Source: Psychrobacter fulvigenes (GTDB lineage: Bacteria > Pseudomonadota > Gammaproteobacteria > Pseudomonadales > Moraxellaceae). Taken from it: a stretch of 64,000 nucleotides of DNA. Positions within the stretch are counted from its first letter, which is position 1. Every line of letters starts with the position of its first letter. Shown here one piece after another: positions 3,963 to 26,614 of the stretch. Under the pieces are notes generated by a model. That model had not been told where the DNA came from. It saw only the letters and a list, made by a program, of their open reading frames with translations, and made no database searches. Made by a program: the position numbers and the translations under genes. The stretch is taken from assembly GCF_904846155.1 (NCBI RefSeq), contig NZ_CAJGZP010000001.1, forward strand, positions 2,542,001 through 2,606,000, written 5' to 3'.

Positions 3963-3984
3963 CACCTAATATAAGGATAATCGC

Positions 3985-5088: not shown

Positions 5089-5118
5089 CTAACTGTCGCA
5101 CGCTAGTTTTGAAATCAG

Positions 5119-5152: not shown

Positions 5153-5210
5153 GCTAAGTACCATATATAAGAGTAGTACCTACTCAACTAGCAACTTATA
5201 TGGACTACCC

Positions 5211-5336
5211 TAGGCTGTGGCTTTAGCCCTGAGAAACGTTAAAAAATTGCACTGCAATTTTAGTTTCGCAAGAGAAATTCTTTAAATAGAATTTCTGTAA
5301 GATAGTTTGCAGCACTTCGCCACCAACCACAGCCTA
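5211..5336. repeat. Palindromic element with nested hairpins between phoH and ybeY
   Basis: The ends are TAGGCTGTGG (5211-5220) and its exact reverse complement CCACAGCCTA (5327-5336). Two hairpins lie inside: AAAATTGCA/TGCAATTTT near 5251-5270, and AGAAATTCT (5273-5281) with AGAATTTCT (5288-5296) around a TTAAAT loop. The second is preceded by CGCAAG, so read on the minus strand it is the same hairpin that occurs several times around the tRNA-Lys genes (stem followed by CTTGCG). It lies in the 399-bp phoH-ybeY gap and encodes no protein. Confidence 0.7.
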
Positions 5337-5487
5337 CACCAATACATTTAGATATTTAAAAATGGGGCAATCAATATAAGTTTTGATCTTAACATTACCT
5401 CAGCTGCTATAGTAGCTTTAACAAGATAATTAAAGATTAAAGACAGCAAGGCTTAATCAGACTCAAAATTCTTAATAGGATAAAAAT

Positions 5488-6108: not shown

Positions 6109-6170
6109 GTTTGATGTAGCCAGTTTTTTACCTAGCCAATCATTTAAGATAGCCAGTCTTTTTAAGGTGA

Positions 6171-7046: not shown

Positions 7047-7195
7047 ACTGACTCTTTATTTTATAGCTTGATTGACTTGATAGCTTGATTGGCTATCTGG
7101 TTTGACGTCACAATCGAATGTCGATCATCACTCTAATGGTTGAGCATTTTAACGCAAGCATCGTTTTGGGTTGTTCGTATTTTAGTAACTTATAC

Positions 7196-8095
7196 TTAAT
7201 AAGTCACATCTACTTTGTCGCTGTAACGATAGGTACGTATCAGACGCAGCTCGACAATATCACTCATGTCTTCGGTAAACTTACCAAAAGGTGCGGCTTG
7301 TCGTACTGATTGCTTCGCAGCTTCGTCTAATATCGTTGAGCCTGAGCTTTCTAGCAGGCGAATGGCTTTAATATTCCCATCATTACTGATAATGACCATC
7401 AGGCGCACTTCGCCAGTGATTCCCTGCGCCCGTGCCTGTACCGGATAGTGTAAGTTACCGATACGCTCGACATGCTCACGAAAGGTTTCAATATAGTCCG
7501 CTGCTGCCCCGCGCGTGGTTGAGTTGCTATCCACGGTGACGACTTTAGACTTGGTGGCATAGACTTGTTGGCGCTGTGATAGCTGCGCCTCTAAAGTTGC
7601 AATCTGCTTACGCAGGCGCTCTTCTTGCGCTTGCATGTCATCTTGCGCTTGTTTGCTGTCGTTATCAGACTCTACGGTCGCTTGACGCCAACTCAAGGTC
7701 GTACGCAAATAGCTTTCTTGGTAGCGCTGCTGACGCACCTTACGCTGCATATTGATCACATCTTGGGTTTCGCTGATTTGCTCTGCAGTCAATGGGCTGG
7801 TTTGCGCACTTTCTTGTCTTACTTTTTGAAGTACCGAACCGCCGCCTTCTTGTGAAGCATTGGCGATATAGTGCGCATCTTCATTGGGCTTCATATTATC
7901 AGTCAAAGCCTTGGCAACATCTTGCATCAACGCTGCAGGATCTTTGCCCATAGAAAAGCTCACGCCAAAAATGATCACCACGTGCACCACTAAGGCAATG
8001 ATAATAGCGACAGGCATGCTAAAATCGCGCTTTGGTGCTTGCGCAGAAAAGTGATAGCTTTGGGAGTCTTTAATATGGGCCACAATGGGTCTCAA
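7196..8095 (-). CDS. TonB-like energy-transducing protein with coiled coil
   Basis: 299 aa. One transmembrane anchor lies at about residues 27-48, a charged coiled coil at about 145-185 (QAQEERLRKQIATLEAQL), and a TonB C-terminal domain at about 205-295 (YPVQARAQGITGEVRLMVII, then LDEAAKQSVRQAAPFG). TonB proteins couple inner-membrane proton force to outer-membrane receptors, but the usual Pro-rich spacer is replaced here by the coiled coil, and no exbB or exbD is adjacent. The longest frame starts with TTG at 8095; a GTG at 8083 is an alternative start and neither has a strong ribosome site. The partner receptor is unknown. Confidence 0.75.
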   Translation of the reverse strand: MRPIVAHIKDSQSYHFSAQAPKRDFSMPVAIIIALVVHVVIIFGVSFSMGKDPAALMQDVAKALTDNMKPNEDAHYIANASQEGGGSVLQKVRQESAQTSPLTAEQISETQDVINMQRKVRQQRYQESYLRTTLSWRQATVESDNDSKQAQDDMQAQEERLRKQIATLEAQLSQRQQVYATKSKVVTVDSNSTTRGAAADYIETFREHVERIGNLHYPVQARAQGITGEVRLMVIISNDGNIKAIRLLESSGSTILDEAAKQSVRQAAPFGKFTEDMSDIVELRLIRTYRYSDKVDVTY

Positions 8096-8254
8096 CTTTC
8101 AGCATAAGTATGGCGGCCATCGCCTTGATCTTGATAATTGGCTGCTATTTTACATGGTTCACACTCATAATGGCAGTTGCAATAATGACTGCTCTTTCAA
8201 GCTACGTCTGATACTCGAGCCTTGCTTTGAAATATACTATTTTCGACGTCATCA

Positions 8255-8393
8255 TATAGTCGACGCACTGTAAAAAGAACCTAGCGCTACTGGGATGAAT
8301 GTTGCGTAGCCTCTGTGAACGCAGCACGCAAGTAAAATTTGTACCAGTAGGGCGTTTAAATTTAGATAACAGTTTTATTTTCAACTGACTACA
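8255..8393. repeat. Dispersed palindromic repeat, copy A
   Basis: A 139-bp element in the gap between the TonB-like gene and the next gene. The inner inverted repeat is GCGCTACTGG (8284-8293) with CCAGTAGGGC (8344-8353), flanking a core with GCGTAGCCTCTGTGAACGCA. The left end reads TATAGTC; the right end in reverse complement reads TGTAGTCAGTTGAAAA and aligns with the left end of copy B at 41738-41887. There is no open frame and no transposase, so it resembles a MITE or other non-autonomous repeat. Confidence 0.75.
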
Positions 8394-8504
8394 ACATGAC
8401 CAATGTCTGATTCAAATCAACTCTACTGGTTATGTTGGTTGGTTTATTTGCTACAATATGACGCCCTTAGCTTTTCGCTACGCTGTTTTGCTATATACTA
8501 TTTT

Positions 8505-8538
8505 AGGGTGTTGAACCCCTACTTAGTATTGACACCCT
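8505..8538 (+). promoter_or_regulatory. Inverted repeat ahead of an unknown gene
   Basis: AGGGTGT (8505-8511) and ACACCCT (8532-8538) are perfect complements 20 nt apart, just downstream of a TATACT (8494-8499) that could be a -10 box and just upstream of the AAGGA ribosome site at 8547-8551. It could be an operator or a leader hairpin. Confidence 0.35.
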
Positions 8539-8559
8539 ATAATGATAAGGATAACCAGT

Positions 8560-9333
8560 TTGCGCAACTTCGATAACTTTGATGACTTCACTGATAATCT
8601 TGGCTATCGCTTTAGCGAGTCATTTAGCGATGGCTGGGAGAGCTTAAGCCAAACCATCAAAAAGCTCTATGACAGAAGCATTGATAAGCTCGATGATGAG
8701 CTGGCTTTACCAGTTGCCCAAACCTACGTCAATGATGCCTTGCAAAAGTTCGTCACTGATAATGTCGGAGCTATCTTGGAGCTACGCGTTGAGCTGCATG
8801 ACGATTGGTTCCGCTTGTACTGTACCTTAAATATTGCAGGTATTTATGCTGAAGTCGCCAGTAACTTTAGTCTCGTGCACGTGCAGCTCGATCGTAACGT
8901 ACAGCGCTTTGTTTTTGGTCAGCAGACTTATACTGACGTACTCAACTTACGCTGCGAGTCATTTATTAAACGCCAAGGCATCAAGCTTTTTATTTGGTTT
9001 TATCATAGCGTGCTCAAAAAAGATCCGTTAGGCTTCATTCTGACTTATATCAATATAGCCCGCGCAAAAGAAGAGATTATCTACCTTGATATTAATCGTT
9101 GGCTAAAAAAGAATAAAAAAATCATGAGTGGCTTACACAAAGTACAGGTTAATTATGGTGAGCTCGAAGAAGAACAGCTGGTGCTAAAAACACAGGTAAA
9201 CTACCGTGACTTGATAGGTGCCAGTAGCATCGATGATATTATTACTGAAGATGACGCGAGCGAAGATGAACCTGAGCTCATGAAAGGTCCTATCAACCCA
9301 ATCGCTGATGCGGCCAAACCAAGCCAAGTCTAA
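8560..9333 (+). CDS. Protein of unknown function
   Basis: I do not recognise this protein. It is about 257 aa, mixed alpha/beta, without signal peptide or clear membrane helix; one hydrophobic patch (residues 140-165, around LFIWFYHSVL) could associate with a membrane. The C-terminal 40 residues are acidic and probably disordered (TEDDASEDEPE). An ATG at 8542 is in frame but lacks a ribosome site. AAGGA (8547-8551) is 8 nt before a TTG at 8560, the same arrangement as in phoH, so TTG is preferred. Monocistronic: inverted repeat upstream, terminator downstream. The ordinary codon use suggests a resident gene rather than a recent import. Confidence 0.7.
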   Translation: MRNFDNFDDFTDNLGYRFSESFSDGWESLSQTIKKLYDRSIDKLDDELALPVAQTYVNDALQKFVTDNVGAILELRVELHDDWFRLYCTLNIAGIYAEVASNFSLVHVQLDRNVQRFVFGQQTYTDVLNLRCESFIKRQGIKLFIWFYHSVLKKDPLGFILTYINIARAKEEIIYLDINRWLKKNKKIMSGLHKVQVNYGELEEEQLVLKTQVNYRDLIGASSIDDIITEDDASEDEPELMKGPINPIADAAKPSQV

Positions 9334-9370
9334 TAGCCAAACACAGGGGCGATTATTGCTCTAACGAATG

Positions 9371-9409
9371 AAAACGCCGCTGCCTTAAATGAAGGTAGCG
9401 GCGTTTTTT
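9371..9409. terminator. Bidirectional terminator between the unknown gene and fpr
   Basis: The GC-rich stem AACGCCGCTGCCTT pairs with AAGGTAGCGGCGTT (one G-U pair), loop AAATG, with A-run before and T-run after, between two convergent genes. Confidence 0.88.
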
Positions 9410-9453
9410 GTGGCCGTTTGAATATAGCCATACGTTTAGCAGTAATTTTTAGC

Positions 9454-10272
9454 TTACCAATAGTTCTCTACAGCGATATTGCCTTCACCGCGGCGATTCA
9501 TGACTAGCCCCAGATCTTTGAGCGTCTCTTTGGTATCTTCTACCATCTCAGGGTTGCCACATAGCATTACATGGGCGCTGTCTATATCTAGCTTGATACC
9601 TGCACGCTCTTCTAACTTACCATTAACCAGCAACTTTGGTAAGCGCTCAGTTAAGGCATCTGCCATCGGCTCGCGGGTGACGATTGGGACAAATATCAAT
9701 TTGGCTGGATTGTCGACCAATGAGCCAAAATCTTCTTGCAAGGTTTTAATCAATTCGAGATAGGCAAGCTCTTCCTTCGACCGTGCACTGTAGGCAAGTA
9801 CGATGTGTTCGTAATCCTCCCAAGTTTGTAGATCTTGTAGCATCGACAAAAACGGCGCCAACCCTGTCCCTGTGGCTAGCAACCACAAATCCTTGGGCAA
9901 TGGCTTTTGATAACGTGCTAAGGTCAAAAACCCAAATGGCATAGTATTCAATAGTAACTCATCACCGACTTGCAAATGCTGCAACTGCGAGGTAAACGCC
10001 CCATCAGGAATGACAATCGAGAAGAACTCTAGCACCTCGTCAAAAGGCGAAGACACAATAGAATACGCACGGTAGATATCTTCATTCAAGGAGTCGTCCA
10101 ATGCGACATCTTGAGCTTTATAGTGTTGTAATTGACTGGGATTGACACCCAAACGCACGAACTGACCAGCAGTAAACTTAAAGCTGTCTGGACGGGTAAC
10201 CGTAAAACTAAACAAGCCTGGTGTCCATGTGGTTTTGTTCAGCACCGTTACTTTTTGAATATTGTCACTCAT
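9454..10272 (-). CDS. fpr: Ferredoxin/flavodoxin-NADP+ reductase
   Basis: 272 aa, FNR-family flavoenzyme moving electrons between NADPH and ferredoxin or flavodoxin in the cytoplasm. The N-terminal FAD-binding barrel has RAYSIVSSP (FAD motif RxYS) near residue 68. The NADP-binding half has LLATGTGLAPFLSML near residue 130 and MLCGNPEMV near 233. It ends in an aromatic residue (VENYW), as FNRs do, stacking on the flavin. The length matches bacterial Fpr (about 250-275). Transcribed alone: the nuo terminator lies upstream, and downstream it shares a terminator with the convergent neighbour. Confidence 0.93.
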   Translation of the reverse strand: MSDNIQKVTVLNKTTWTPGLFSFTVTRPDSFKFTAGQFVRLGVNPSQLQHYKAQDVALDDSLNEDIYRAYSIVSSPFDEVLEFFSIVIPDGAFTSQLQHLQVGDELLLNTMPFGFLTLARYQKPLPKDLWLLATGTGLAPFLSMLQDLQTWEDYEHIVLAYSARSKEELAYLELIKTLQEDFGSLVDNPAKLIFVPIVTREPMADALTERLPKLLVNGKLEERAGIKLDIDSAHVMLCGNPEMVEDTKETLKDLGLVMNRRGEGNIAVENYW

Positions 10273-10342
10273 AATAATTAATCACTCTCATTTTTATTAA
10301 TAGTCTTTTATTGATGGTTGTTTTTATAAGTTTTTAAAGGAT

Positions 10343-10390
10343 ACAAACCAAAAGATGCGCCAAGCTTAGCATAAACTTGGCGCATCTTGG
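10343..10390 (-). terminator. Terminator of the nuo operon
   Basis: A perfect 13-bp stem AAGATGCGCCAAG (10352-10364) with CTTGGCGCATCTT (10376-10388), 11-nt loop. On the minus strand it is followed by TTTTGGTTTG. It lies about 90 bp after the nuoN stop and shields fpr from nuo transcription. Confidence 0.88.
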
Positions 10391-10475
10391 TTTTCTAACA
10401 GTAACAGCGGATAAGTAACCCACATCGTTAGCCGTTACTTATCCTATCTCTATACGGCTTCTTATACGGCTTGTG

Positions 10476-11954
10476 TTACCAAATACGCGCCATACCTGAC
10501 CAAACGATCAAGCTATTTGGCAGTACACCAAAGTAGATAATCACTATGGTGACACCAATCACCATGAGCCCGCCCATACGAATGCCCCACTGCCCTGCTA
10601 CATCAAACTCAATAAACTGCTTAGGACGTTTAAACAATGTCAGCATCACGCGCAGGTAATAGAACAGACCGATGGCACTGCCCAAGATAATCATCGCTGC
10701 TAAGAACCAGTTGGTTCCTTGCACAGCGGCTAAAATCGCAAACAGCTTAGTAATAAAGCCTGCTGTCAGTGGAATACCCGCTAAGGACAACATCATAATG
10801 GTCATCACCGCGGTAATCACCGGACGACGCCAAAATAGCCCTTGATAGTGTGATAAATCATCCGCTTCACCAGATTGACGATAAGGACTCGACATCAGCG
10901 TTACGACGCCAAAAGCACCAACAGAGGTCAAGGCATAAGCTGCCATATACATGCTAGAGATGCTATCAGCGGCAGCACCAATACTGACAATGACAATCAA
11001 TACGTAACCCATATGGGCAATGGAAGAATACCCTAATAGGCGCTTAAGGTTGGTCTGACGGACAGCCAATAAGTTACCAACTAGGATAGACAAGGTTGCC
11101 ATAACCATCAGTAGCATTTGTACCGACGGCAATGCCAACAAAGCGCTATCAATTAAAAAACGCACTGCCAGTGCCATCATCGCCACTTTAGACACCGAAG
11201 CTAAGTAAGTCGCTATAGGAGCGGGTGCGCCTTCATAGACATCTGGTGTCCATGCATGAAAGGGTGCCGCAGACAGTTTGAAAGCAACCCCAAACAGCAT
11301 AAGTGCTGCCCCTAGTATCAGCAGTGGCGACTCAAACATACTGCCTAGCACCAGGCTAATCGGCTTGAATGCCAGTGAGCCAACCTGAGCATAAATAAAC
11401 GCCATACCCATTAAGATAGTTGCAGAGGCGGTCGCTGAGAGCACCAAATACTTAAGACCTGACTCCAAAGAGCGGCTGCGCAAAAAGGTATAAGACAGCA
11501 AGCCGTATAGCGGTATAGAAAGCAGCTCAAGACTCATAAAGAATGCCGCCATATGCTGCGCTGATACCATTAATAAAGCACCAGTCGTCGATAACAATAG
11601 CAGCAAATACAGCTCGTCCTTATTATCTTTAAGATTTGCCAAATAGGCGTATGCCAAGGTACAGCAAGCCAAGGCACAGATAAAGATAACCACCATATTA
11701 AACTTGGCAAAGCTATCAATCACAAATAGCTGCTCAGCGTTTGGCACTACTGAGCCACTACTTATCACACCCGTGATCTGTCCAATCAAGGTAAACAGGC
11801 CGACGTTCAGACCCAAAACACTGATGGTAGCAGTGACAAAATGTGAGCGCTTAATAGTGATAGCAATCATGGCCAATAAAGACGTAATCGCTACTGCAAT
11901 GATCGGCGCATAAGGCATTAACCCCATCAAATCATTCATCGTAAATTCATTCAT
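10476..11954 (-). CDS. nuoN: NADH-quinone oxidoreductase subunit N
   Basis: 492 aa, a polytopic inner-membrane protein with about 14 hydrophobic helices, one of the three antiporter-like proton-pumping subunits of complex I. Family signatures include SLELLSIPLYGLLSY, KYLVLSATASATILMG and AAPFHAWTPDVYEGAP (the last is diagnostic for NuoN and homologous Mrp antiporters). Last gene of the operon; it begins 3 nt after nuoM and is followed by the operon terminator. A GGAGG ribosome site lies 11 nt upstream of the ATG, inside the end of nuoM, so the two are translationally linked. Confidence 0.96.
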   Translation of the reverse strand: MNEFTMNDLMGLMPYAPIIAVAITSLLAMIAITIKRSHFVTATISVLGLNVGLFTLIGQITGVISSGSVVPNAEQLFVIDSFAKFNMVVIFICALACCTLAYAYLANLKDNKDELYLLLLLSTTGALLMVSAQHMAAFFMSLELLSIPLYGLLSYTFLRSRSLESGLKYLVLSATASATILMGMAFIYAQVGSLAFKPISLVLGSMFESPLLILGAALMLFGVAFKLSAAPFHAWTPDVYEGAPAPIATYLASVSKVAMMALAVRFLIDSALLALPSVQMLLMVMATLSILVGNLLAVRQTNLKRLLGYSSIAHMGYVLIVIVSIGAAADSISSMYMAAYALTSVGAFGVVTLMSSPYRQSGEADDLSHYQGLFWRRPVITAVMTIMMLSLAGIPLTAGFITKLFAILAAVQGTNWFLAAMIILGSAIGLFYYLRVMLTLFKRPKQFIEFDVAGQWGIRMGGLMVIGVTIVIIYFGVLPNSLIVWSGMARIW

Positions 11955-11957
11955 GAC

Positions 11958-13586
11958 TTAACGTGCCTCCATTGCATCAAGTAACGGCGACATATCGACC
12001 TGCGTCACCTGACTGTAAATATATGCATTATTGATCCACTGCATAGCGTGACTTGATGTATCCAAAAACGGCTGCGGATACAGTCCGAGCCATACTAGCC
12101 CTGCTGCCAACATCAATAATAATGACAGCTCGCGCTTACCCAAATCTTTCACTCTACGCGGTGGTAAGCCATGCGACTTGGTCTCATGCAGTGCCACTGC
12201 TTCAATGTTATTGGCACCAAATAGCGCACGGTAAATCAATATTAATGAGTACAGACCTGCTAGTACCAAACTAAACGTCGCTAGCACCACAAATACGGGA
12301 TACTGCGCAAACGCACCAAACAAAATCATGAACTCACCGATGAAGTTACCAGTACCAGGAATACCTAGCAACGCGGCACTAAAGAACATCAGCATAGGCG
12401 CGTAGTAACGGAACTGCCCCCACATACCGCCCATCAAGGTCAGGTCACGAGTATGCAAGCGCTCATAGAGCTGACCTGCCATGATGAACAGCGCGGCTGA
12501 GCTAAGACCATGTGCTAGCATTTGGATCATCAAGCCTTGTAGGCTGAGTAAAGTACCCGCATAAATCGCCAACACCACAAAACCCATGTGCGAGATACTG
12601 GTATAGGCCAATAGACGCTTCATGTCTGTTTGCATAAAGGCGAGCCATGCGCCATAAAAAATACCAATGGTGCCCAAAGTGATGGCAATCGGTGCAAACT
12701 CTTGCGATGCTGCAGGAAATAACGGCAGCACAAAACGAATCAAACCATAGGCAGCTGTCTTAATCAGCACCCCTGCCAAATCCACCGAACCTGCTGTTGG
12801 TGCCTGCGCATGTGCATCAGGTAACCAACCGTGGAACGGCATAACTGGCAACTTGACGGCAAAGCCGATAAAGAAGCACAGCATGATCGGATATTCCCAG
12901 CCGCCAAGTGGCGTACCGAGCAAGTCATTATAGTTAAAGCTCACCACACCGCTATTAGCGTAGCTGAACAGCACTAATAACAACACGCCAATGAGCATAA
13001 TAAGCCCAGAAGCTTGGGTATAAATAAAGAACTTAGTTGCTGCGTATTCTTTTGTCTTACCACCAACGACATCATGACCCCAAATGGCAATCAAGAAGTA
13101 GATAGGAACCAGCATCATCTCCCAAAAGAAGAAGAATAAAAACAGGTCAATGGCTAAGAAAACACCAATAACGCCGCCTAAGCTCCATAGCAAGTTCAGA
13201 TGAAAGAAGCCAACACGGCGCTGGATTTCATTCCATGAACACGCAACGGCAGCGACACCAAGCAGCCCTGTCAATGCAACCATCATTAGCGACAGACCAT
13301 CTAGCGCTAAGTGAAAGCTGATACCGAAGCTTGGTATCCACGGCACACTAAATTCAGCAATCCAAGGCACCGCCGCTGCAGGCGCAATCACTTGCTTACT
13401 CATGCCAGCAAAGTCGCCATACTGCCAAAGCACCATAGACAGCCCAAAGGTCAACATCATACCAATTAAGGCAATCCACCGTGGTAGGCGCTTATTAAAG
13501 CGCTCAACCAACCAACATAGCAATCCGGCAATAAACGGAATAGCAATCAATGCCGGTAGCATCCACGTTTGTTGTAACTCAATCAT
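11958..13586 (-). CDS. nuoM: NADH-quinone oxidoreductase subunit M
   Basis: 542 aa, antiporter-like membrane subunit of complex I, about 14 helices. The key stretch FFFFWEMMLVPIYFLI holds the conserved Glu of the proton channel, and KLPVMPFHGWLPDAHAQAPT is the signature loop with the conserved Lys. Slightly longer than E. coli NuoM (509 aa). Starts 1 nt after the nuoL stop, with a weak ribosome site, consistent with translational coupling. Confidence 0.96.
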   Translation of the reverse strand: MIELQQTWMLPALIAIPFIAGLLCWLVERFNKRLPRWIALIGMMLTFGLSMVLWQYGDFAGMSKQVIAPAAAVPWIAEFSVPWIPSFGISFHLALDGLSLMMVALTGLLGVAAVACSWNEIQRRVGFFHLNLLWSLGGVIGVFLAIDLFLFFFFWEMMLVPIYFLIAIWGHDVVGGKTKEYAATKFFIYTQASGLIMLIGVLLLVLFSYANSGVVSFNYNDLLGTPLGGWEYPIMLCFFIGFAVKLPVMPFHGWLPDAHAQAPTAGSVDLAGVLIKTAAYGLIRFVLPLFPAASQEFAPIAITLGTIGIFYGAWLAFMQTDMKRLLAYTSISHMGFVVLAIYAGTLLSLQGLMIQMLAHGLSSAALFIMAGQLYERLHTRDLTLMGGMWGQFRYYAPMLMFFSAALLGIPGTGNFIGEFMILFGAFAQYPVFVVLATFSLVLAGLYSLILIYRALFGANNIEAVALHETKSHGLPPRRVKDLGKRELSLLLMLAAGLVWLGLYPQPFLDTSSHAMQWINNAYIYSQVTQVDMSPLLDAMEAR

Positions 13587-13587
13587 T

Positions 13588-15462
13588 TTACACCACCGTA
13601 ATCATTACCAGCACCAGCAATACAGCTACTCCCAAGCCAAAGCTTGCAGCATAACCTCGAAGTGACCCAGTTTGCGTTGCAGACAAGGCTTTATTACCTG
13701 CTGACGCCAACATTGGCAATATATTCCACGTCTTATCAACAGGGTCGGCTTTAAATAAACGGCCAATCAACAAGAAGGGTTTTACAAATACCAAATCGTA
13801 TAAAGCGTCAAAGCCCATACCGTGATAGCACCAATGGTATAGCGCCCCACCGATTCGCGTCTGCTTAAAGCGTGAGAGCATCCGGCCCTTATCAACTACA
13901 TAAAATAGCGCTGCCAATATTAGTCCTGCTAGCATCGCACCCATAGCGATATATTCGGCCGTATGTTTGTCATCGGCTTGGTTGGCCACTTCTAATAGAT
14001 GCCCAACGCTTTCTGGCAACACGCCTTGTAATGGCGGTGTAATCCACGCCCCTACGGCGGTTGATAGCACGAGTAACACCGTAAGCGGCAACCAATACGA
14101 CACGCCAGATAGCTTGTGCGCTGGGGTTTTTTCTTCACCAAAAAAGATAATCCAAATCATACGGATGGTATAAATGGCAGTTAAGAATGCACCGAATACC
14201 CCCATATAAAATAAGACTTGATGACCCGTCGCAAACGCTTCCCAAAGGATGGCTTCTTTTGAATAAAAGCCAACCGTTACCCAAGGTATCGCTGCAAGCG
14301 CGCCGCCACCGACGATATAACACCAGAATACTAACGGTATTTTCTTACGCAGTCCGCCCATCTTGAAAATGTTTTGCTCATGATGCACGGCAAGAATGAC
14401 CGCACCTGAAGATAAGAACAATAAGGCCTTAAAGAACGCGTGAGTCATCAGATGGAAGACAGCGCCTTGCCATGCCCCCACGCCCAATGCTAAGAACATA
14501 TAGCCGATTTGACTCATGGTCGAATACGCTAAAATGCGCTTAATGTCTGTCTGTACCAACGCACAAAATCCAGCGACCACCAGCGTCAAGGCACCCACAG
14601 CACCGACCCAGTACAACAAAATACCTGGGGTCAAAATAAACAATGGATGTAGGCGCGCGATTAAATAAACACCTGCGGTAACCATCGTTGCCGCGTGAAT
14701 CAACGCTGATACTGGCGTTGGACCTGCCATCGCATCAGCAAGCCACGTATGTAGTGGAATCTGTGCCGACTTACCCATTGCTCCACCAACAAGCATCATG
14801 GTGGTTAGGATCATCGTTGGATTATTCACATCGAACACCTCAGGCGCACGGGTGATGATCTCTTGGATATTCAGCGTGCCAAACTCACGGAACAGTAAGA
14901 ATAGACCAAACGCCAAAAACACATCGCCGATACGGGTCACGGTAAAGGCTTTCATCGCCGCACGGCCATTGGCTCTGTCTTCAAAATAAAAACCAATCAG
15001 CAAGTACGAACAAATACCCACACCTTCCCAACCAAGATATAGCAGTAACAAATCATCCGCGAGCACCAGCAATAACATACTGGCGACGAACAAATTCATA
15101 TAGCTAAAGAAACGGGCAAAACCCTTATCACCCTTCATGTACCAAGCAGCAAACAAATGAATCAAAAAGCCCACGCCAGTAATCACACCTGTCATGGTCA
15201 AGGCTAAGCCATCAAAGCTGAGCCCAAAGCTTGGCGCAAAGTCTCCCACTTGAAACCATGTCCACAGTGGCACTTGTACGACCGTACCTGCGGGATGTGT
15301 GCTCAAAAAGGTATAGCTGGCAACCAATGTACATAGCGCTGATAGCCCCATGCTACCAACACCAACCATCGCTGCCGCCTGTTCAGTTAACCTGTCGCGC
15401 ATAAAGGCTAAGATCAAAAAGCCAATGAGCGGGAGTATAAAGGTTAATGGTAATAAACTCAT
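13588..15462 (-). CDS. nuoL: NADH-quinone oxidoreductase subunit L
   Basis: 624 aa, the largest antiporter-like subunit of complex I and the distal proton pump, close to the 613 aa of E. coli. Recognisable segments are LYLGWEGVGICSYLLIGFYF (conserved Glu), AQIPLHTWLADAMAGPTPVSA and the broken-helix region SQIGYMFLALGVGAW. The C-terminal part carries the long lateral helix that clamps NuoM and NuoN. An AAAGGA ribosome site precedes the ATG. Starts just after nuoK (4-nt gap). Confidence 0.96.
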   Translation of the reverse strand: MSLLPLTFILPLIGFLILAFMRDRLTEQAAAMVGVGSMGLSALCTLVASYTFLSTHPAGTVVQVPLWTWFQVGDFAPSFGLSFDGLALTMTGVITGVGFLIHLFAAWYMKGDKGFARFFSYMNLFVASMLLLVLADDLLLLYLGWEGVGICSYLLIGFYFEDRANGRAAMKAFTVTRIGDVFLAFGLFLLFREFGTLNIQEIITRAPEVFDVNNPTMILTTMMLVGGAMGKSAQIPLHTWLADAMAGPTPVSALIHAATMVTAGVYLIARLHPLFILTPGILLYWVGAVGALTLVVAGFCALVQTDIKRILAYSTMSQIGYMFLALGVGAWQGAVFHLMTHAFFKALLFLSSGAVILAVHHEQNIFKMGGLRKKIPLVFWCYIVGGGALAAIPWVTVGFYSKEAILWEAFATGHQVLFYMGVFGAFLTAIYTIRMIWIIFFGEEKTPAHKLSGVSYWLPLTVLLVLSTAVGAWITPPLQGVLPESVGHLLEVANQADDKHTAEYIAMGAMLAGLILAALFYVVDKGRMLSRFKQTRIGGALYHWCYHGMGFDALYDLVFVKPFLLIGRLFKADPVDKTWNILPMLASAGNKALSATQTGSLRGYAASFGLGVAVLLVLVMITVV

Positions 15463-15466
15463 GACA

Positions 15467-15874
15467 TCATCCTTTCATCTCATTGGCGCTATCGACATCG
15501 AGATGCCCACGCTTATGATAAAACTGCAATAATATTGCTAAGCCAATGGCTGCTTCAGCGGCCGCCAAGGTCAAAATAAAGATAAACATAATCTGTCCAT
15601 CTGGGTCGACCCAGCGGCTGCCTGCCACCACGAACGCCAAAGCTGCCGCATTCATCATGATCTCAAGGCTCATCAGCATGAATAAAAAGTTACGTCTGAC
15701 CATCACACCGCACAGACCAATTGCAAATAAGATACCTGCCAATATCAATCCATGGCTCATAGGTATCATACCCAATACACTCTGCGCCTCAGCAGCAGGC
15801 TGTACTAAGCCTGCAACCTCATGGGCAAACGGCACATTTGACACCTCTTGTGCCACGCTTGCTGCTAGTACCAT
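15467..15874 (-). CDS. nuoK: NADH-quinone oxidoreductase subunit K, N-terminally extended
   Basis: 135 aa against about 100 in most bacteria. The canonical NuoK begins [19 protein letters not shown] at residue 36 (nt 15769) and has three membrane helices with the conserved Glu in [14 protein letters not shown], part of the proton path. The frame, however, extends 35 residues further upstream to an ATG that overlaps the nuoJ stop (TGATG) and has a near-ideal AAGGAG ribosome site 9 nt before it. The start at 15769 has only a poor site. The sequence therefore supports the long form, with a mostly soluble Ala/Val/Glu-rich extension. Confidence 0.9.
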
Positions 15875-16584
15875 CAGTCTGACTCCTTGCGCGTAGCTTT
15901 CTGCGTACCTACCTGCATACCCACATAGTCATGTGGATCTACATCTTTATATTCGTAGGGTTCTGCCATTTCCACAGCGTCGGTAGCACTGCTATTGTCA
16001 TATTCGCTCATACTGCCAATACTTGGCTGGAAATCCTGACTATCGTTTCCGATAACCTCATCATCTATAGACTCTTTGCCTAAATGATAGGCTGCGACCA
16101 GTGCCGCGAGTAACAATAATGCAGCCACTTCTACTAGCAGCACATATTTGGTAAATAAGACTGTACCCACTGCTTTGGCAGACACCGTCGTTCCACCAAT
16201 AACAGCAGCCTCGTCATGATTGAGACCGATCATCGCATAGAGCACAACCGCGATAACAATCGTCAGCCCTGTCGGCAGCGCCCAAGTCTTGGCATCAAGC
16301 CAGCGCTCTTCACGGGCATCGTTAGCCATACCCAGATTGAGCATCATGATAACGAAAACAAACAGCACCATAATCGCGCCAGCGTATACCACAATCTCAA
16401 GCGCACCAGCAAAAGGCGCACCCAATATAAAAAATATGCCAGATATGGCCAACAGTGACACGATCATCGATAAGATGGCATGTACTGGATTGGCATGAAT
16501 GACCACGCGCAAACTGGCAAAGATAGCCACTGCCGCCAGTGCATAAAACCCTGTCAAATCTGGGCTATTTAAGATAGTCATCAT
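15874..16584 (-). CDS. nuoJ: NADH-quinone oxidoreductase subunit J
   Basis: 236 aa, membrane subunit of complex I with five helices; [21 protein letters not shown] is the diagnostic segment whose pi-bulge helix moves during coupling. The last 65 residues or so after YHLGKE are an acidic soluble tail ([25 protein letters not shown]) that makes it longer than E. coli NuoJ (184 aa). Overlaps nuoI by 4 nt (ATGA) and nuoK by 1 nt. A second ATG follows immediately. An AAGGAG ribosome site lies 10 nt upstream. Confidence 0.95.
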
Positions 16585-17129
16585 GGTAGCAAGCTCCTTA
16601 GATCCACAGGCTCAGCTTCATTCTGCGCTAAACCTTTTGGTTTGTCCGCTACCGCCATACCTGTCACGCGATAATAGTTATAATCAGGATATTTACCTGG
16701 TCCTGAAATCAGCAGATGCTCTTTTTCGTAGACCAGATCTTGACGCACGTATTCGCCCATCTCAAAGTCAGGGGTCATTTGAATGGCCGTCGTTGGGCAA
16801 GCTTCTTCACACATCCCGCAAAAAATACAGCGCGAGAAGTTAATACGGAAAAACTCTGGGTACCAACGTCCATCATCACGCTCCGCTTTTTGTAGCGAAA
16901 TACAGCCAACTGGACAGGCCACTGCACATAGGTTACAAGCGACGCAGCGTTCATCCCCATCAGGGTCACGAGTGAGGACAATACGTCCGCGAAACCGTGG
17001 CGGTACGGGTACGGGTACTTCAGGGTAAAGAATCGTATCTCGTGGACGAATCGCATGACTGTTCACCATCCACATGCTGCGAACAATGGTAAACATGCCT
17101 ATTACTATCTTTTTTATCGAAGTTAACAT
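16581..17129 (-). CDS. nuoI: NADH-quinone oxidoreductase subunit I (2x[4Fe-4S])
   Basis: 182 aa, the ferredoxin-like peripheral subunit that carries clusters N6a and N6b on the route to N2. Two complete motifs are visible: Cys62, 65, 68 with Cys72, and Cys101, 104, 107 with Cys111, each closed by CP. The N-terminal amphipathic helix ([16 protein letters not shown]) docks on the membrane arm. The ATG has AAAGGAT 10 nt upstream. Sits between nuoH (27-nt gap) and nuoJ (4-nt overlap). Confidence 0.97.
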
Positions 17130-17156
17130 GGGGTTATTATCCTTTTCAGCATTGCC

Positions 17157-18191
17157 TTAGCTCATCAGCAGAATTACCGCGGCGGTAACCAGCAGATTAA
17201 TTAAGGTCACTGGCAAGCAAACCTTCCAGCCAAAATTCATCACCTGATCATAGCGCGGACGCATGAGAGAGCCTCGAGCCAAAATGAACATGGTCATAAA
17301 GAACAGCGTCTTAATCATGAACCAAAAAGCTGGCGGAATAAACGGAATATCTAAATTGAAAGGTGCAAGCCAACCACCAAAGAACAAACAGGTCATCAAT
17401 GCTGAGATTAATACGACGTTGACATATTCACCGATAAAAAACATACCAAACTTCATGCCTGAATATTCAACATGGTACCCTTCAGCAAGCTCCTGCTCTG
17501 CTTCTGGTTGGTCAAATGGATGTCTGTGAGTAACGGCAACACCAGCAACCACAAAAGTCAAAAACCCAAAAAACTGCGGGATGATGTACCATCCGTCAGC
17601 CTGTGCTTCGACAATGGCACGTAAATTAAACGAGCCTGTCAAGGCGACAACACCCATCAATGACAGACCTAAGAAGACTTCGTAACTGATGGTTTGTGCT
17701 GCTGAACGCAGACCACCCAGTAGCGAGAACTTGTTTGCTGATGCCCAGCCGCCGAACAGTACTGCATAGACTGCAATGCCCGCCATGGCAAAGAAGAACA
17801 AAATACCAATATCCCAATCTGCCACACCAAGCGTTGGTGATACTGGGATAATGGCAAATGAGGCCAATGCCGTAAACATTGCGACTGCTGGCGCAAGGAT
17901 AAAGATAAATTTATCAGTAAAGTTTGGCGTCCAATCTTCTTTAAAGAAGATTTTTAGCATATCAGCAACCAACTGCAAGGAGCCAAAAGGCCCGACACGG
18001 TTTGGCCCATAGCGATCTTGCCACAGCGCCAGCATTCGACGCTCATAGACAATCATCAACGCCGCGACAATGACCACCACCAAAAAGATGACAATCGATT
18101 GCACAACCATAAATAAAATGGACCAAGTATCATACGTCATCATACCAGCCAAAAAGCTTGGCACATCAGGAATAATACGAGTAAATGACAT
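17157..18191 (-). CDS. nuoH: NADH-quinone oxidoreductase subunit H
   Basis: 344 aa, the membrane subunit that forms the quinone chamber with NuoB and NuoD. Eight or so helices; [21 protein letters not shown] is the family hallmark, and [20 protein letters not shown] is the conserved acidic loop. The frame is open upstream to 18248, but MSFTRII at 18191 is the correct start: AGGAG lies 8 nt upstream and nuoG stops 1 nt earlier. The extended version would overlap nuoG by 56 nt and begins with an implausible Arg-rich stretch. Confidence 0.96.
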
Positions 18192-18192
18192 A

Positions 18193-21100
18193 TTAGATCT
18201 CCTGCGTGTTGGTCGGCGCGGCAGTCGCGCGGTTAGAGGTAGCCTCACCTTCTAAGACTGAATCATCAGCCATAGCACCTGTCATGCTGACCGGCGCATC
18301 AACCTTGCGTACTGAGGCTGGCATTGACGGATGAATAATACTCACCTGACCAACTGGATAGCCAATACAGCCCTCCGCTAAATAATATACTACTTGCACT
18401 GGCAACGTGATTTGCTGATTATCGATCTCGATAGCCAAATAATCACCCTCACTCACACCCCAGTCTTTAGCATCGTCAATACCAACACGCCAAGTAGCAA
18501 CCGGCAGCTGTGCGGCGACGATTGGGCTACGTGACGCCATGATTGAACTGGCATAGATATTATAAATAGGAACCAGCTTAGCTTGTCCTTTCTCGATATC
18601 AGTCGTCGCGGTAGACAAAGTCTCTGGCGCCACATACTGACGCAGTGTCAAACGCTCTAACTGATCAAATAAGCGTATCCCAGGATCGCCACCTTTTAGG
18701 CCACCCCCAACTTTGTCTTGATATTTATTCCACGCTTGCGGTGAGTTCCAGCCCGCTGCATTGGCGAATGGAATCATTGAGCCTTTGGCTTGTTTGCCGC
18801 TATAACCTTCCATCGAAAAGGTCAAACCTGTGTCCAAATCTTTTGGTTGCATCGGCTCGTGGACAGATATCGGTGCGCGCATCGCCGTACGACCCGAATA
18901 ACGACGAGGCTGACGGGCAATCTTGAGACCAGTAATGCGATAATCAGCATCAGGAGCAGCACCCTTGATAGCAGCAAGCTTAGGATGAGTCGCTACCAAA
19001 GCATTGATGACATCATCAAGCTGTGTCCAGTCGACATCACGACCCTCTATGCTGCTGTGAACTGCATGCAACCAACGCCAACCTTCTTTGATACTACTAA
19101 GCGGATGGTAATATTCGTTATCATAAACTTGGAAGAATCGCTGAGCTCGGCCTTCAGCAGATATCAATGTGCCATCTGCTTCTGCAAAGCTGGCAGCCGG
19201 CAGGACGATATCGACATCTTTATGCCAATCCAGTAGCTGATGATCCAAGGCGATGACGGTTTTATCTACCAATAGCTGAGTCAACTTGTGACCATCAATG
19301 GCATCTGTCAGCTGGTTTTCAGCGACAATTACCACATCAAAATCAGTGGCAAGCAATTCTTCGACTGATTGACCGCCAAGCAAGCAGACGCCTATGCTAT
19401 TAGCCTCAGGAACCGTTAAATAGATACCCGCTTGCGCATAGTAGTTTTCATTAACTGTTTTTAGCTCAAGGCTGTCTTCTCTTAGCTCTTGACTGTCCGC
19501 AGGCTCGCGCTCTACATCATCTTGCGCATCTTTATTGGTACCCGTTTCAGGCTTAGCTGGTTTGGCTGATAGCTCTTTATCTTCTTCAGGCTGATCATTA
19601 GCAGACTGCGCTTGCGCTTTTACTTTGGCATTGTGCGCGTCTACTTGCTGCTGTTCCGTTGCTTTAATAGCTGCACGTTTTTGCGTGAGTACTTGAGTAA
19701 TTTGCGCGGCTGCCTCTATCATGGCGGTTGATGACAAACTGCTGCCCGATACAATCAACGGCTTATCAGCTTGCACCAAATCATAAGCGATTTGCTGAGC
19801 CAACGCTTGCATAGCATCCGTATTAGCATTGACATCAGCATCTGATTGCTCGGCTGATTGTGGTTCTGCTACTTCTGCTAAATCATCAGCAAGTTTGGTA
19901 ATCTCATCAGCCACTTTAAAACCAAGCATCGTGATGTCTTCTGGTGTGGCGACCACGCTGACTTTGCTGATATCTTCTAGTTTGGTTTGAGCAACGTCGA
20001 TGACATAGACTGGGCTCAAGGCATCTTGAGCAATACGTTTGACAGGCTCTGCAAGCCACGGCTGAGTTTGGAGCGCCGCCGCCATTTTCAGGCCTTCATT
20101 TTTTGCCGATTGGCGCACTGATAGTGCCAAGCGTGGTGAGGTTTGGGTAATGTCTTCACCCAATATCAGCACTGCATCATGGCTTTCAACATCAGTCATA
20201 CCAGGGTTATAGATACCTTCAGTGCTCAGCACTTCGATGCATTTATTGACCAGTGCTTGCTGCTGGTGATTGAGACCTGTTGAGAAGTTATCAAAGCCAA
20301 CGAGGTTTTTTAGGGCAAAGTTGGTTTCCAAACTGGCACGTGGAGAGCCAATACCAATGACCTTCTTATCTTTTATACGTTTGATGGTCTCATCAAGTGC
20401 ATAGTCAATATTAATTTTGACGTGTTTTTCATTGATACGCTCAAGCGCTTGGGTTGGGCGATCAGCGCGATTGACATAGCCGTAACCAAAGCGACCACGG
20501 TCACATAGGAAGTAACGGTTTACTTCGCCGTTATAGCGGTTCTCGATACGGCGCAATTCACCATAGCGCTCACCCGGTGAGATGTTACAACCAGCCGAAC
20601 AGCCATGACAGATGCTAGGCGCATATTGCATGTCCCATTTACGGTTGTAACGCTCAGAGTGGGTTTGGTCAGTAAAAACCCCAGTTGGACATACTTCGGT
20701 TAAGTTGCCTGAAAACTCACTTTCAAGCTGACCGTCTTTATCACGACCGAAATACACGCGGTTATTGGAGGCGTAAACCCCCAAGTCTTCGCCGCCTGCA
20801 TAGTCTTTATAAAAACGTACGCAGCGATAGCAGGCGATACAGCGGTTCATCTCATGAGCGATAAAAGGCCCAAGCTCTTGGTTATGATGCGTGCGTTTGG
20901 TAAAGCGATAGCGACGACGGCTATGGCCTGACATATAGGTCATGTCTTGTAAGTGACAGTGCCCACCCTCTTCACAGGTTGGACAATCGTGCGGGTGGTT
21001 GGTCATAAGGAGCTCAACCATCGACTTACGAAACGCTTTTGCTTCATCGTCAGTAACAGATATGTACATATCATCGTCGGGAGCGACCATACAAGACATC

Positions 21101-21300
21101 ACCAGACGTCCGCGACCTGCTTCCATATCATCGAAATTTTGATACTGCTTGACCGCACACTGACGGCAAGAACCGACTGAACCTAAAGCTGGATGATAAC
21201 AAAAATACGGCACATCAATGCCGAGTGATAAACATGCCTGCAGCAAGTTATCAGCGCTATCTACCTCGACAGTGGTTCCATCAATATGTATGACTGCCAT
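18193..21300 (-). CDS. nuoG: NADH-quinone oxidoreductase subunit G
   Basis: 1035 aa, the largest peripheral subunit of complex I and an iron-sulfur wire. N-terminal [2Fe-2S] ligands are Cys34, Cys45, Cys48 and Cys70; then come [14 protein letters not shown] (N5), [10 protein letters not shown] (N4) and CHGCSAGC (N7). The remainder is a molybdopterin-oxidoreductase-like fold. It exceeds E. coli NuoG (about 908 aa), largely through a charged, Gln/Glu/Lys-rich insertion at about residues 550-615, which looks like a flexible surface loop. An AGGAGAG ribosome site precedes the ATG. Confidence 0.95.
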
Positions 21301-21309: not shown

Positions 21310-22733
21310 CTATTTCACTTCTGGCTGTTGATTGGCTGCAGCATCAATGACATCTACGCCAACCGCCTGCGCGATTTTTTGATCAAACTCAGGACGGAAG
21401 TATTTTATCGCACTCATCAGTGGTTCCATCGCACCTGGAGCATGCGCACAAAAGGTTTTGCCAATCCACAAGTCGCGCGTGAGTCCCTCTAACTTCTCAA
21501 CATCGCCTATTTGCCCCTCGCCATCATTAATGGCGGTCAGCAGTTTGACACCCCAAGGTAGGCCGTCACGACATGGTGTACAAAAGCCGCATGATTCACG
21601 CTGAAAGAAGATCTCAAGATTGCGCAATAACGGCACCATATCTTGCTCTTCATCGACGACCATGATCAAACCTGTACCCATACGGCTACCGGCTTTTTGA
21701 ATGGTATCAAAATCCATGACAACGTCTAAATGATCAGCCGTCAAAAAGTCCGTTGATGCGCCGCCGGGTAGCCAAGCTTTGAGGGTACGGCCATCAATCA
21801 TACCACCAGCGAAATCCTCAATGATTTCGCGAGCGGTATAACCAAATGGCAATTCCCACAATCCAGGATCATTGACCAAGCCTGAGCAACCAAATAGCTT
21901 AGTGCCTGGCGTTTCACTATTGCCTTTTATTTGCGCTAGCGACTGATACCATTCCACGCCGTTGTTTAGGATGGCTGGCATGTTACATAAGGTCTCAACG
22001 TTGTTGACGACCGTTGGGCGACCCCATGCCCCAGAAACTTGTGGAAATGGTGGTTTGGTACGAGGATTGGCGCGGCGACCTTCCAAGCAGTTAATCAGCG
22101 CCGTCTCTTCACCGCAAATATAGCGTCCAGCGCCCGTATGCACATGTAGATGAAAGCTAAAGTCTGAACCCAGAATGTTGTCGCCCATTAGATTATTGGC
22201 CAGACATTCTTCAATGGCTGCGACCAAGCGCTGGGCGGCTAAAATATATTCACCGCGAATAAAGATATAACCATCGGTGGCACCAATGGCATGGGCAGTG
22301 ATCAGCATACCTTCGATCAACTGAAAAGGCAGACGCTCCATGAGCAAACGGTCTTTAAAAGTACCTGGCTCCATCTCGTCGGCATTACAGATGAGGTAGC
22401 GCGGCAGACCATCAGGAGGAATCATAAACGACCACTTTAGGCCTGCGTAAAACCTGCACCGCCACGACCTCTGACGTTGGCCGCTTTAATCATATTTTGT
22501 ACGTCTATGGCAGGCTTGTCTAACGCCGTCTTCAAACCTGCAAAACCATTTAAAGACTCATAGGTCGCTAAGTCCAATATGGCATCGTGGTGTGCAAGCC
22601 GCCATGTCAGCGGTCTTGTCTCACTGGTAGCCGTGGCTTTATCACCATAGACAGGAATACGTTGATCATTGAGTTGGCTGGGTGCTTTACCTTGACCACG
22701 ACGAGCAATCTGCTCAGAAACTGTTAATCTCAT
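21310..22733 (-). pseudogene. nuoF: NADH-quinone oxidoreductase subunit F, one-base frameshift
   Basis: NuoF binds NADH and FMN and holds cluster N3. The gene appears as two frames: 22437-22733 (98 aa, ending [10 protein letters not shown] then TAA) and 21310-22425 (371 aa from MIPPDGLPR). Adding one C in the minus-strand run GCCTAA gives GCC CTA AAG TGG, restoring A-L-K-W across the junction, the sequence expected after GRGGAGF in NuoF. All else is intact: [51 protein letters not shown] and KTFCAHAPG. The start overlaps nuoE by 4 nt, with GGAG upstream. The change lies at a GG/GGG run (22440-22441), so an assembly error is as likely as a real mutation. The downstream genes are undamaged. Confidence 0.93.
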
Positions 22734-23239
22734 GCGTATAGCTCCAATAACTGGGCGACTTCATCAGGCTGGACAGGGCCATAGGTATCTTCATCAATCA
22801 GTACCGCAGGGCCTTTGTCACAGTTACCTAAGCAGCAAATCGGCAGCAACGTAAAGCGACCATCTACTGTCGTCTGGCCATACTCGATACCTAATTGTGA
22901 GCGTATCTCAGCAGACAGCGCCTCATAGCCAGTCAAATAACACGCCACTGAATCACAAATCAAAATCACATGGCGGCCGACAGGTTGGCGGTAAATACGG
23001 TTAAAGAAAGTTGCGACCCCGTCGATATCAGTGACTGGAATATCTAGGATATTAGCAATCGCATTTACCTGTGCGTCATCAACCCAGCCATTGCGCTTTT
23101 GCACGATCTTTAGCGCATCTAATGAGGCTGCGCGCGCATGTGGATAATGCTGTACAAACTCATCAATGGCTGCAATTTCAGCAGCGGTCAAGATGCTTGC
23201 TACATCTACTTTTGGCGCTTTATCGGAAACAATCTTCAT
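22730..23239 (-). CDS. nuoE: NADH-quinone oxidoreductase subunit E ([2Fe-2S])
   Basis: About 169 aa, thioredoxin-like subunit carrying cluster N1a near the FMN. Ligands: Cys95 and Cys100 (CDSVAC) and Cys136 with Cys140 (CCLGNC region). An N-terminal helical bundle precedes (DEFVQHYP, DALKIVQKRNGW, GVATFFNRIYRQPVG). The frame can be read from a GTG at 23260, but MKIVSDK at 23239 is the first ATG and matches family length (166 aa in E. coli). Overlaps nuoF by 4 nt. Confidence 0.95.
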   Translation of the reverse strand: MKIVSDKAPKVDVASILTAAEIAAIDEFVQHYPHARAASLDALKIVQKRNGWVDDAQVNAIANILDIPVTDIDGVATFFNRIYRQPVGRHVILICDSVACYLTGYEALSAEIRSQLGIEYGQTTVDGRFTLLPICCLGNCDKGPAVLIDEDTYGPVQPDEVAQLLELYA

Positions 23240-23369
23240 AATCTTTTTTTCTTTCCTCACTCATCACGTAGTCATGCTTGGCGCTGATCGCGCAGTGACT
23301 ACGATTTGGTGTGCCAGTTGGCGCTCACATTTACATGAGCTTTCTTAAGCTTTGATAATGACAGCCGCT

Positions 23370-25145
23370 TTAACGATCACAGTCTGCCATCACAATATCA
23401 ATCGACGCCAAATACATAATGGCATCAGAGACCAGCGAGCCATTAATTACCGACGGCATCTGCTGCAGATGCGCGAATGTCGGCGTACGAATACGCGTAC
23501 GATAACTCATCGTGGCGCGATCTGAGGTAATGTAATAGCTATTGATACCTTTAGTAGCCTCTACCATCGTTGAGCATTCACCCGCTGGCATCACAGGACC
23601 CCAAGACACGGATATAAAGTGATTGATTAGGGTTTCAATGTCATTTAAAGTACGGTCTTTTGGTGGCGGTACTGCTAGTGGGTGATCGGCTTTATAAGGG
23701 CCTTGCGGCATATTATCCATACACTGACGGATGATACGCATGGATTGGCGTATTTCCTCAATCTTGATCATACAGCGATCATAAGCATCGCCATTGTAGC
23801 CGACAGGTACTTCAAAGTCGTAGTTTTCATAGCCCATATATGGACGCGCTTTACGTAAATCAAAATCAACACCTGTAGCACGTAAGCCTGCACCCGTCAC
23901 GCCCCAAGCTAATGCTTGCTTGGCATTATACTGCGCAACGCCTTGGCTACGACCCTTCAGCACACTGTTCTGCAGAGCTGCTTTGACATATTCATCCAAG
24001 CGCTTTGGCATCCAGTCCAAAAACTCACGTACCAGACGTTGCCAGCCACGTGGTAAGTCATGCGCTGTACCGCCAATACGAAACCAAGCTGGATGCATGC
24101 GATAACCAGTCACGGCTTCGATGACGTCATAAGCTTTTTGGCGGTCGGTAAACATATAGAATACTGGCGTCATACCCCCAGCATCTTGGATAAAGGTACC
24201 GACGTATAGCAGGTTGTTGGTAATACGGAAAAACTCACTCATCATCACGCGAATAGTTTCAGCACGCGGTGGAATGGTAATTCCCGCCAGCTTTTCGACC
24301 GACATGATATATGGTAGCTCATTCATCACACCGCCAAGATAATCAATCCGGTCGGTATAAGGAATATAAGAATGCCATGTTTGACGCTCAGCCATCTTTT
24401 CGGCGCCGCGGTGGTGATAACCAATATCTGGAATACAGTCAATGACCTCTTCGCCATCAAGCTGTAAAACCAATCTAAAAGCACCATGAGCTGAAGGATG
24501 GTTGGGACCAATGTTCAAAAACATAAAGTCTTCATCACGCCCTGAGCGCTTCATACCCCACTCTTCGGGGACAAAGCGCAAGTTTTCTTGCTCGTATTGT
24601 TGTTTGGCAGTATTCAAAAAATACGGGGTAAACTCAGTCGCGCGCGCGTGATACTCCTTGCGCAGTGGATGACCTTCCCAGTATTTAGGCAGTAGGATAC
24701 GCGTCAGATGCGGATGACCGTCAAAGACAATCCCAAACATATCCCACACTTCGCGCTCATACCAGTTGGCATTTGGCCACACTTTGGTCGCACTGGGGAT
24801 ATTGAGATCTTCTTCGCTCAGCGCAACTTTGATACGTACATCGCTATTACGCTCAAGAGACATTAAGTGATAGAACACCGTAAAGTCACTGGCTGGCAGA
24901 CCCGCGCGATGTTGACGCAAGCGCTCATCCATCGCCGACAAGTCATATAGCATGACATAAGGCTTTGGCAACGTGCGCAAGAACAACAAAATATCCAACA
25001 GGTCAGCACGCGCAACCCAAACAGTCGGAATCTCATCGACGGTCTGCTGCACGACAAACTTGCCAGCATACTTGTGTTCCAGCTCTCTGATGACTGCTGG
25101 TACGGGTTTGATCTTAGGATCTTTGTTTTCGACTACCGTGACCAT
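23370..25145 (-). CDS. nuoCD: NADH-quinone oxidoreductase fused subunits C/D
   Basis: 591 aa fusion, as in E. coli (600 aa). Residues 1-190 form NuoC (30-kDa type; [27 protein letters not shown] is the signature). After a linker around VPEEWG, residues 210-591 form NuoD (49-kDa type; [22 protein letters not shown], and the tail ending MADCDR). NuoD builds the quinone site with NuoB and NuoH. AAGGA lies about 12 nt before the ATG. The 130-bp gap to nuoE and the 83-bp gap to nuoB are the largest inside the operon's first half. Confidence 0.97.
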
Positions 25146-25228: not shown

Positions 25229-25897
25229 CTAAATACTATCTGGGCTACGCAAGTTTTTTACCGCGATACGATCTGCTTGCTTACGGTCACGCTCAGGCGT
25301 CATCTGTGGCTGATAGACGCCTTGATCATTGACGTGAATCCCTAGTGGACGACGCTCTTTGGTGATGGACTCTTGCAACAACATCAACCCTTGAATAAGC
25401 GCTTCTGGACGCGGCGGACAGCCAGGCACATACACATCTACTGGAATGATTTTATCTACGCCTTGTACCACAGAATAAATATCGTACATACCACCAGAGT
25501 TGGCGCAAGCACCCATAGATATGACCCATTTTGGCTCAAGCATTTGCTCATACAGACGCTGAATCACAGGCGCCATTTTGACAAAGCAAGTCCCTGCTAC
25601 GATCATCACATCCGCCTGACGCGGCGACGCTCGAATCACTTCTGCACCGAAACGCGATAAATCGTGTACCGCTGTCAAGGTCGTCGCATACTCAACGTAG
25701 CAACAAGAAGTACCAAAGTTAAATGGCCATAAAGAGTGCTTGCGACCCCAGTTAGCCGTCGAATGTACAAGGTCTTCGAGACGACCCATAAAGACGTTTT
25801 TATTGACTTCATCTTCTAGCGGATCATTAACAGTTTGGCGAGTCTGTGCAGGATACTGATCTGCATCAGGATTGGCTTTGGTTATTGTGTACTTCAT
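25229..25897 (-). CDS. nuoB: NADH-quinone oxidoreductase subunit B (cluster N2)
   Basis: 222 aa. The four ligands of terminal cluster N2 are Cys65-Cys66 (GTSCCYVEY), Cys131 (MGACANSGG) and Cys160 ([12 protein letters not shown]), at the spacing seen in E. coli. N2 hands electrons to quinone. The longest frame begins at a TTG (25906), but the ATG at 25897 has AAAGG about 9 nt upstream and is preferred. Located between nuoA (about 93 nt) and nuoCD. Confidence 0.96.
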
Positions 25898-25990
25898 AAC
25901 ATACAACCTTTAAATTAAGCGCAGCGTAGCGACCATGTTTTCAATAATTTACGTAGCATACGACAATAAAACTTATCAGTATATTGCGTG

Positions 25991-26614
25991 CTAACTTTCT
26001 TTATTGTCATGATGCGCAGACGCAGAGAAATCCACAGAAGTAATATTGCCCGTGGTATTAATATGATCAATATTTTTTAGATGACGGCGGTTCTCTTCAA
26101 TACTATTTGAGACATTAATTTGCCCTGAAGACTGTGCTGGCACCTTCCCAGTAGGATCTACCATTAGCTCTTCCACACCATCGAACTTGGTAATGTCTGC
26201 CAAATTAAAACCGATAGGAGCCGTTTTTAGACGGGGCTTTTTGCGTAGCTTGTCAGCAGGCGACCAATTCATCGCACCTAAGCTAAGCTCGTATATCAAG
26301 CCAATAATCAAGATGCCAATAAATATCGTAGCCGCTGCAAATCCAAGCCAACTGGCCTCGCGAACTGAGACCGCATAAGCATATAAATACAAGGCTTCTA
26401 AATCGAAGATAACAAAAAAGATAGCCACCAAATAGAATTTTGCAGACAAACGAATACGGGCATTGCCAGCTCCGACAACACCCGCTTCAAATATCTCTTC
26501 TTTTTGTAAGCCATGAGAGCGTCCGCCGAGTAAGCGCGGGACGACCAGCATAAATACAACCAAGCCGATAGCGGCTAAAATAAAAGCTACTGCTGACCAA
26601 TCAAAGGCAGACAT
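25991..26614 (-). CDS. nuoA: NADH-quinone oxidoreductase subunit A
   Basis: 207 aa, three-helix membrane subunit of complex I and first gene of the operon. The hallmark loop YLVAIFFVIFDLEALYLYAY carries the conserved acidic residues of the second helix. Helices at about 8-28, 65-88 and 93-118. The last 80 residues are a soluble tail rich in Asn, Ser and His (ENRRHLKNIDHINTTGNI), longer than in E. coli (147 aa). GGAG lies 11 nt before the ATG. The long upstream region without genes presumably contains the nuo promoter. Confidence 0.95.
   Translation of the reverse strand: MSAFDWSAVAFILAAIGLVVFMLVVPRLLGGRSHGLQKEEIFEAGVVGAGNARIRLSAKFYLVAIFFVIFDLEALYLYAYAVSVREASWLGFAAATIFIGILIIGLIYELSLGAMNWSPADKLRKKPRLKTAPIGFNLADITKFDGVEELMVDPTGKVPAQSSGQINVSNSIEENRRHLKNIDHINTTGNITSVDFSASAHHDNKES

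Follow-up and report, generated by a model that had tools for sequence, protein, structure and literature searches.

A One-Base Frame Break in nuoF of a Psychrobacter Complex I Operon, Probably Due to a Residual Assembly Indel

Introduction

The NuoF or 51-kDa subunit of complex I is described by the protein families TIGR01959 and NF008436; in the Psychrobacter DNA that we have analyzed here, the protein is split in two frames. Our search of the literature found no papers on the nuoF gene of Psychrobacter, or on complex I in conjunction with Na+-NQR in this genus. The closest systems are the intact subunit itself, the errors that arise in sequence assemblies and a nuoF break in another Psychrobacter genome, G106, which is treated below. 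Regarding the assemblies, indel errors of one base in bacterial long-read data are the subject of Kastor (PMC12007338) and, reportedly, of Homopolish (PMC8011154). According to the Kastor study, what goes wrong in such assemblies is mostly a matter of short indels at homopolymers. The present case resembles these errors in being a one-base break within a conserved gene, accompanied by other breaks in the same assembly, some of which lie in homopolymers, but differs from them in that the break in nuoF is situated at a short run.

The nuo Operon and Its Broken Gene

The window, by which we mean the whole stretch of 64,000 nucleotides under analysis, belongs to a 3.40-Mb contig from the chromosome of a Psychrobacter (genome G000, assembled in 5 contigs and 99.99% complete). 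Its minus strand carries, from 26614 to 10476, a cluster with the gene order nuoA-B-CD-E-F-G-H-I-J-K-L-M-N. The 12 genes other than nuoF (A, B, fused C/D, E and G to N) had been considered open in a first-pass annotation made from the sequence alone, and this is confirmed, each of them being an open frame with a match to the NCBIfam or Pfam family expected for it. Upstream of nuoF lie intact nuoA (25991–26614, PF00507), nuoB (25229–25906, PF01058), the nuoCD fusion (23370–25145) and nuoE (22730–23260), the last two identified by their open frame and profile match. Downstream follow intact nuoG (18193–21300, TIGR01973), then nuoH (17157–18248), also intact, the profile matches of which start from residue 36, its true start being probably later than that of the ORF, and finally nuoI, J, K, L, M and N (10476–17129), which are all open. 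The window additionally contains two tRNA genes, at 56421–56493 and 56785–56857 (Rfam at gathering thresholds), both scoring 73.1 bits and perhaps duplicates of each other.

The nuoF gene starts with an ATG at 22733 that overlaps the stop of nuoE, and its frame ends prematurely after 98 codons (22440–22733) with a TAA at 22439–22437. The remainder of NuoF is encoded in the −1 frame, in an ORF of 371 aa (21310–22425) that matches NF008436 with 585 bits; from stop to stop this frame comprises 391 aa. The first-pass annotation had recognized correctly that one frame stops and a second resumes the NuoF sequence. From ATG to stop the gene has 1424 bases here, while a protein of 474 aa requires 1425. 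Both pieces match the NuoF profile, the 5′ piece with an E value of 9e-11 for NF008436; the 3′ piece, whose homology, when taken over 21310–22452, extends from residue 95 (F) as far as the C terminus and which matches PF01512 and PF10589, remains below the curated cut-off of TIGR01959 (523.6 vs. 558.65 bits) because the gene is split. The sequence record does contain the frame break. A second copy of nuoF elsewhere was considered and rejected, since a search of the genome found a single Complex1_51K locus.

Intact Homologs and Position of the Missing Base

The nearest NuoF that we found, P0001, is an intact protein of 474 aa that matches the 3′ piece at 97% and is itself matched by solved chains including 7awt_F and 2fug_1. 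Its first 95 residues are identical to those of the window, after which it continues in frame with NAGLKW. Its substitutions with respect to the 371-aa piece are confined to a single cluster of 10, all between residues 168 and 216, as if deriving from recombination or a chimeric contig. We have then compared the gene with 109 loci of relatives having overlapping species, mostly of Psychrobacter with six of Moraxella, which correspond to 88 distinct sequences. All 109, like P0001, are intact at the break site and read in a single frame after the motif GRGGAGF, continuing with NAGLKW in 85 cases, PAGIKW in 22 and PAGLKW in two. The record is one base short with respect to all these loci and to the near-identical intact protein.

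To place the gap, a single one was slid along positions 22406–22480 and each arrangement was compared with the locus of every relative. For every one of the 109 loci, the best placement takes in a point between 22446 and 22449; in 41 of them it ties with a placement between 22453 and 22452. A tblastn search with the NuoF of the relative G028 sets the break at residue 95, the two pieces meeting at 22452/22449, and MAFFT introduces its gap directly after TTTT. The missing base is consequently located in the Asn codon that follows GRGGAGF (minus strand, 22446–22449), beside the TTTT tract and approximately two to three codons upstream of the site suggested earlier. Judging from these alignments, residues 1–95 of the 5′ piece are in the true frame, while the T-Q-A with which the 98-codon frame ends is an out-of-frame peptide. 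The first-pass annotation had instead postulated a missing C in the minus-strand sequence GCCTAA (GG at 22440–22441 on the plus strand), a site that we reject because no locus among the 109 favors a gap there. The added C would restore an ALKW peptide, whereas P0001 reads FNAGLKW and the relatives N/P-A-G-L/I-K-W.

Across the genus, the NuoF profile matches all 105 genomes, including the one studied here, which is the only one in which the match is distributed over two frames; the same search found the break in none of the other 104, each of which represents a different species. Moreover, among 14 proteins examined out of the 17 matching the 98-aa piece, none ends in TQA. In G106, a genome of 2 contigs and 85% completeness, the profile match begins at position 26 only, and the DNA (contig C1 of G106, 1543201–1544900) reveals an independent break of one base in the vicinity of codon 70; the first frame of this gene corresponds letter for letter to the 70-aa protein P0130. 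This second case is similar to that of the window in being a one-base break in an assembly of few contigs, but it differs in its position at codon ~70 and in the 85% completeness of its assembly. A hand count with rounded contig numbers assigns fewer than 10 contigs to 28 of the 105 genomes, and broken nuoF genes occur in two of these as against none of the other 77 (P = 0.07).

Selection on nuoF

After filtering for length and identity, 101 of the 109 loci were available for estimating pN/pS, and for comparison 400 pairs of relatives were sampled, keeping only those with pS over 0.3 (377 and 365). The median pN/pS of the 3′ piece is 0.06 versus the 101 relatives, compared with 0.12 between relatives, while that of the 5′ piece is 0.16, compared with 0.21 between relatives; all these ratios are rough, because synonymous sites are near saturation. 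We saw neither relaxed selection nor any further lesion in nuoF, and the 12 other nuo genes are open. A very young pseudogene, too, would lack signs of relaxed selection, and if the deletion is real, not enough time has passed for it to leave a mark of this kind.

Other Split Genes in the Same Assembly

The frequency of split genes was evaluated by comparing 1.36 Mb of the G000 chromosome, plus 20 kb of plasmid, with 1.40 Mb of G028, a relative assembled in a single contig. The second contig of G000 (57 kb; noted at positions 1–20000) is plasmid-like; parts of this contig match plasmid records, from Acinetobacter, Moraxella and Psychrobacter among others, at places annotated as tet(H) and aminoglycoside phosphotransferases. 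None of these records covers 80% of the query, nor does any of the 11 records of a plasmid collection that are hit by the nuo region, and a small contig, which reads N, gave no match; records close to this genome may be missing from such searches. For the count we took those ORFs of G028 that reach at least 100 aa and match well, without overlapping shadow ORFs, whose removal brought 586 down to 520 and, in the reverse direction, 598 down to 529. The count covers split genes, as distinct from genes broken by a point stop (stops within HSPs, 62 and 59 rows). Six of 520 non-shadow genes are split in G000 relative to G028. The reverse test yielded one of 529, an apparent split in an ORF of 123 aa, a second reverse split having been dropped with the shadow ORFs. 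This excess hints at assembly indels without being significant (Fisher P = 0.067), nor is it significant for the class of one-base breaks, five versus one (P = 0.12); an earlier, smaller comparison had given three of 269 versus none of 266.

Five of the six splits in G000 are apparently due to indels of one base, and three of these indels lie in runs of 5–6 A or T. Besides nuoF, they affect, on contig C1, the genes for the pyruvate dehydrogenase E2 component (aceF, TIGR01348; 2254967–2256692), an AmpG-family transporter (1856563–1858463), a WG-repeat protein (1798000–1798931) and a protein of 160 aa (2606902–2607362) that has no family match at the thresholds used. The WG-repeat gene shows a net loss of one base in an ambiguous alignment. 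Compared with G028, aceF contains one additional base within a run of A at about codon 28. A broken E2 gene would be costly in an aerobe; yet this break, situated so early in the gene, leaves most of it open and hence need not be lethal. The sixth case, nadC (C1, 2531076–2531925, about 10 kb to the left of the window), is of a different nature, for it contains a segment inverted between perfect 17-bp inverted repeats that lie 140 bp apart and do not appear in the aligned copy of G028. No second nadC was found. The inversion perhaps originated from a template switch during replication and is not a base-calling error, so that at least one gene of this genome would seem to be truly broken.

Origin of the Frame Break

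How did a conserved respiratory gene come to be recorded in two frames? The first-pass annotation had offered three options, base-calling error, fresh mutation and recoding. Our data favor the first, leave the second in play and, through the evidence of the relatives, oppose the third. In our judgment, the missing base of nuoF probably reflects an indel of one base left over in the assembly. An error of the consensus next to the TTTT tract would have dropped it, while the DNA of the living strain would keep it; the strain would then have an ordinary intact nuoF and, with it, normal complex I. This reading agrees with the intactness of P0001, with the profile match falling in two frames in no other genome of the genus (that of G106 being short at its start), with the low pN/pS and the lack of a second lesion in the gene, with the five one-base breaks in the same assembly, including that of the E2 gene, and with the break of G106. 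It has to be balanced against the position of the lesion, at a short run rather than a long homopolymer, against a split-gene excess that is not significant, against the 99.99% completeness of the assembly, against the ambiguity of one of the five one-base cases, the WG-repeat gene, and the possible harmlessness of another, the E2 break, as well as against the inversion of nadC, which base calling does not explain.

A genuine and very recent deletion of one base, that is, an ordinary null mutation, appears possible but rather unlikely. NuoF would then be truncated at 98 aa, before most of its FMN-binding domain, leaving complex I unable to oxidize NADH, a function that would pass to different enzymes, for instance the Na+-translocating NQR. 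The genes nqrD, nqrE and nqrF are indeed intact elsewhere on the chromosome (the search covered these three genes), so that the loss of NADH oxidation by complex I would plausibly be tolerated. Loss-of-function nuo mutations, including frameshifts, are mentioned for Escherichia coli in a published study (PMC8795404), and the additional split genes of the assembly, together with the inverted nadC, are compatible with true gene damage in this strain. However, the NuoF profile is matched in each of the 105 genomes of the genus, neither nuoF nor the other nuo genes show further decay, and the one-base break in the E2 gene hints at errors in the same assembly. If the deletion were real, the strain would have to oxidize NADH without complex I, a result that would be useful but ordinary.

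It is very improbable that the deletion is real and that some NuoF is nonetheless made by recoding, either by a −1 slip on T-TTT-A, in which the tRNA for Phe TTT re-pairs one base back, or by RNA polymerase adding a U in the T4 run, to give at some yield a nearly normal NuoF of 474 aa with the sequence GRGGAGF-Y-AGLKW. Direct reading of the junction indicates that a single-tRNA slip is conceivable, as the zero frame GGT TTT ACG permits it, the −1 frame then reading TAC GCA GGC CTA AAG TGG and being open across the junction; but the same reading finds only T-TTT-A and no heptamer of the form X XXY YYZ, as stated already in the first pass, which had argued against recoding. No other among the 105 genomes shares the two-frame arrangement. 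Furthermore, 43 of the 109 loci contain GGTTTTA in a gene that is read in frame without any shift; the tract has accordingly been inherited as coding sequence and is no evolved signal. Were recoding true, an ordinary run of codons at the FMN-site loop would serve to rescue, in a leaky fashion, a respiratory gene that is broken.

Returning to the assembly indel that we consider probable, its significance would be limited to annotation: This Psychrobacter strain should not be listed among organisms without complex I, and the other genes that are split in its assembly, aceF included, would merit equal caution.
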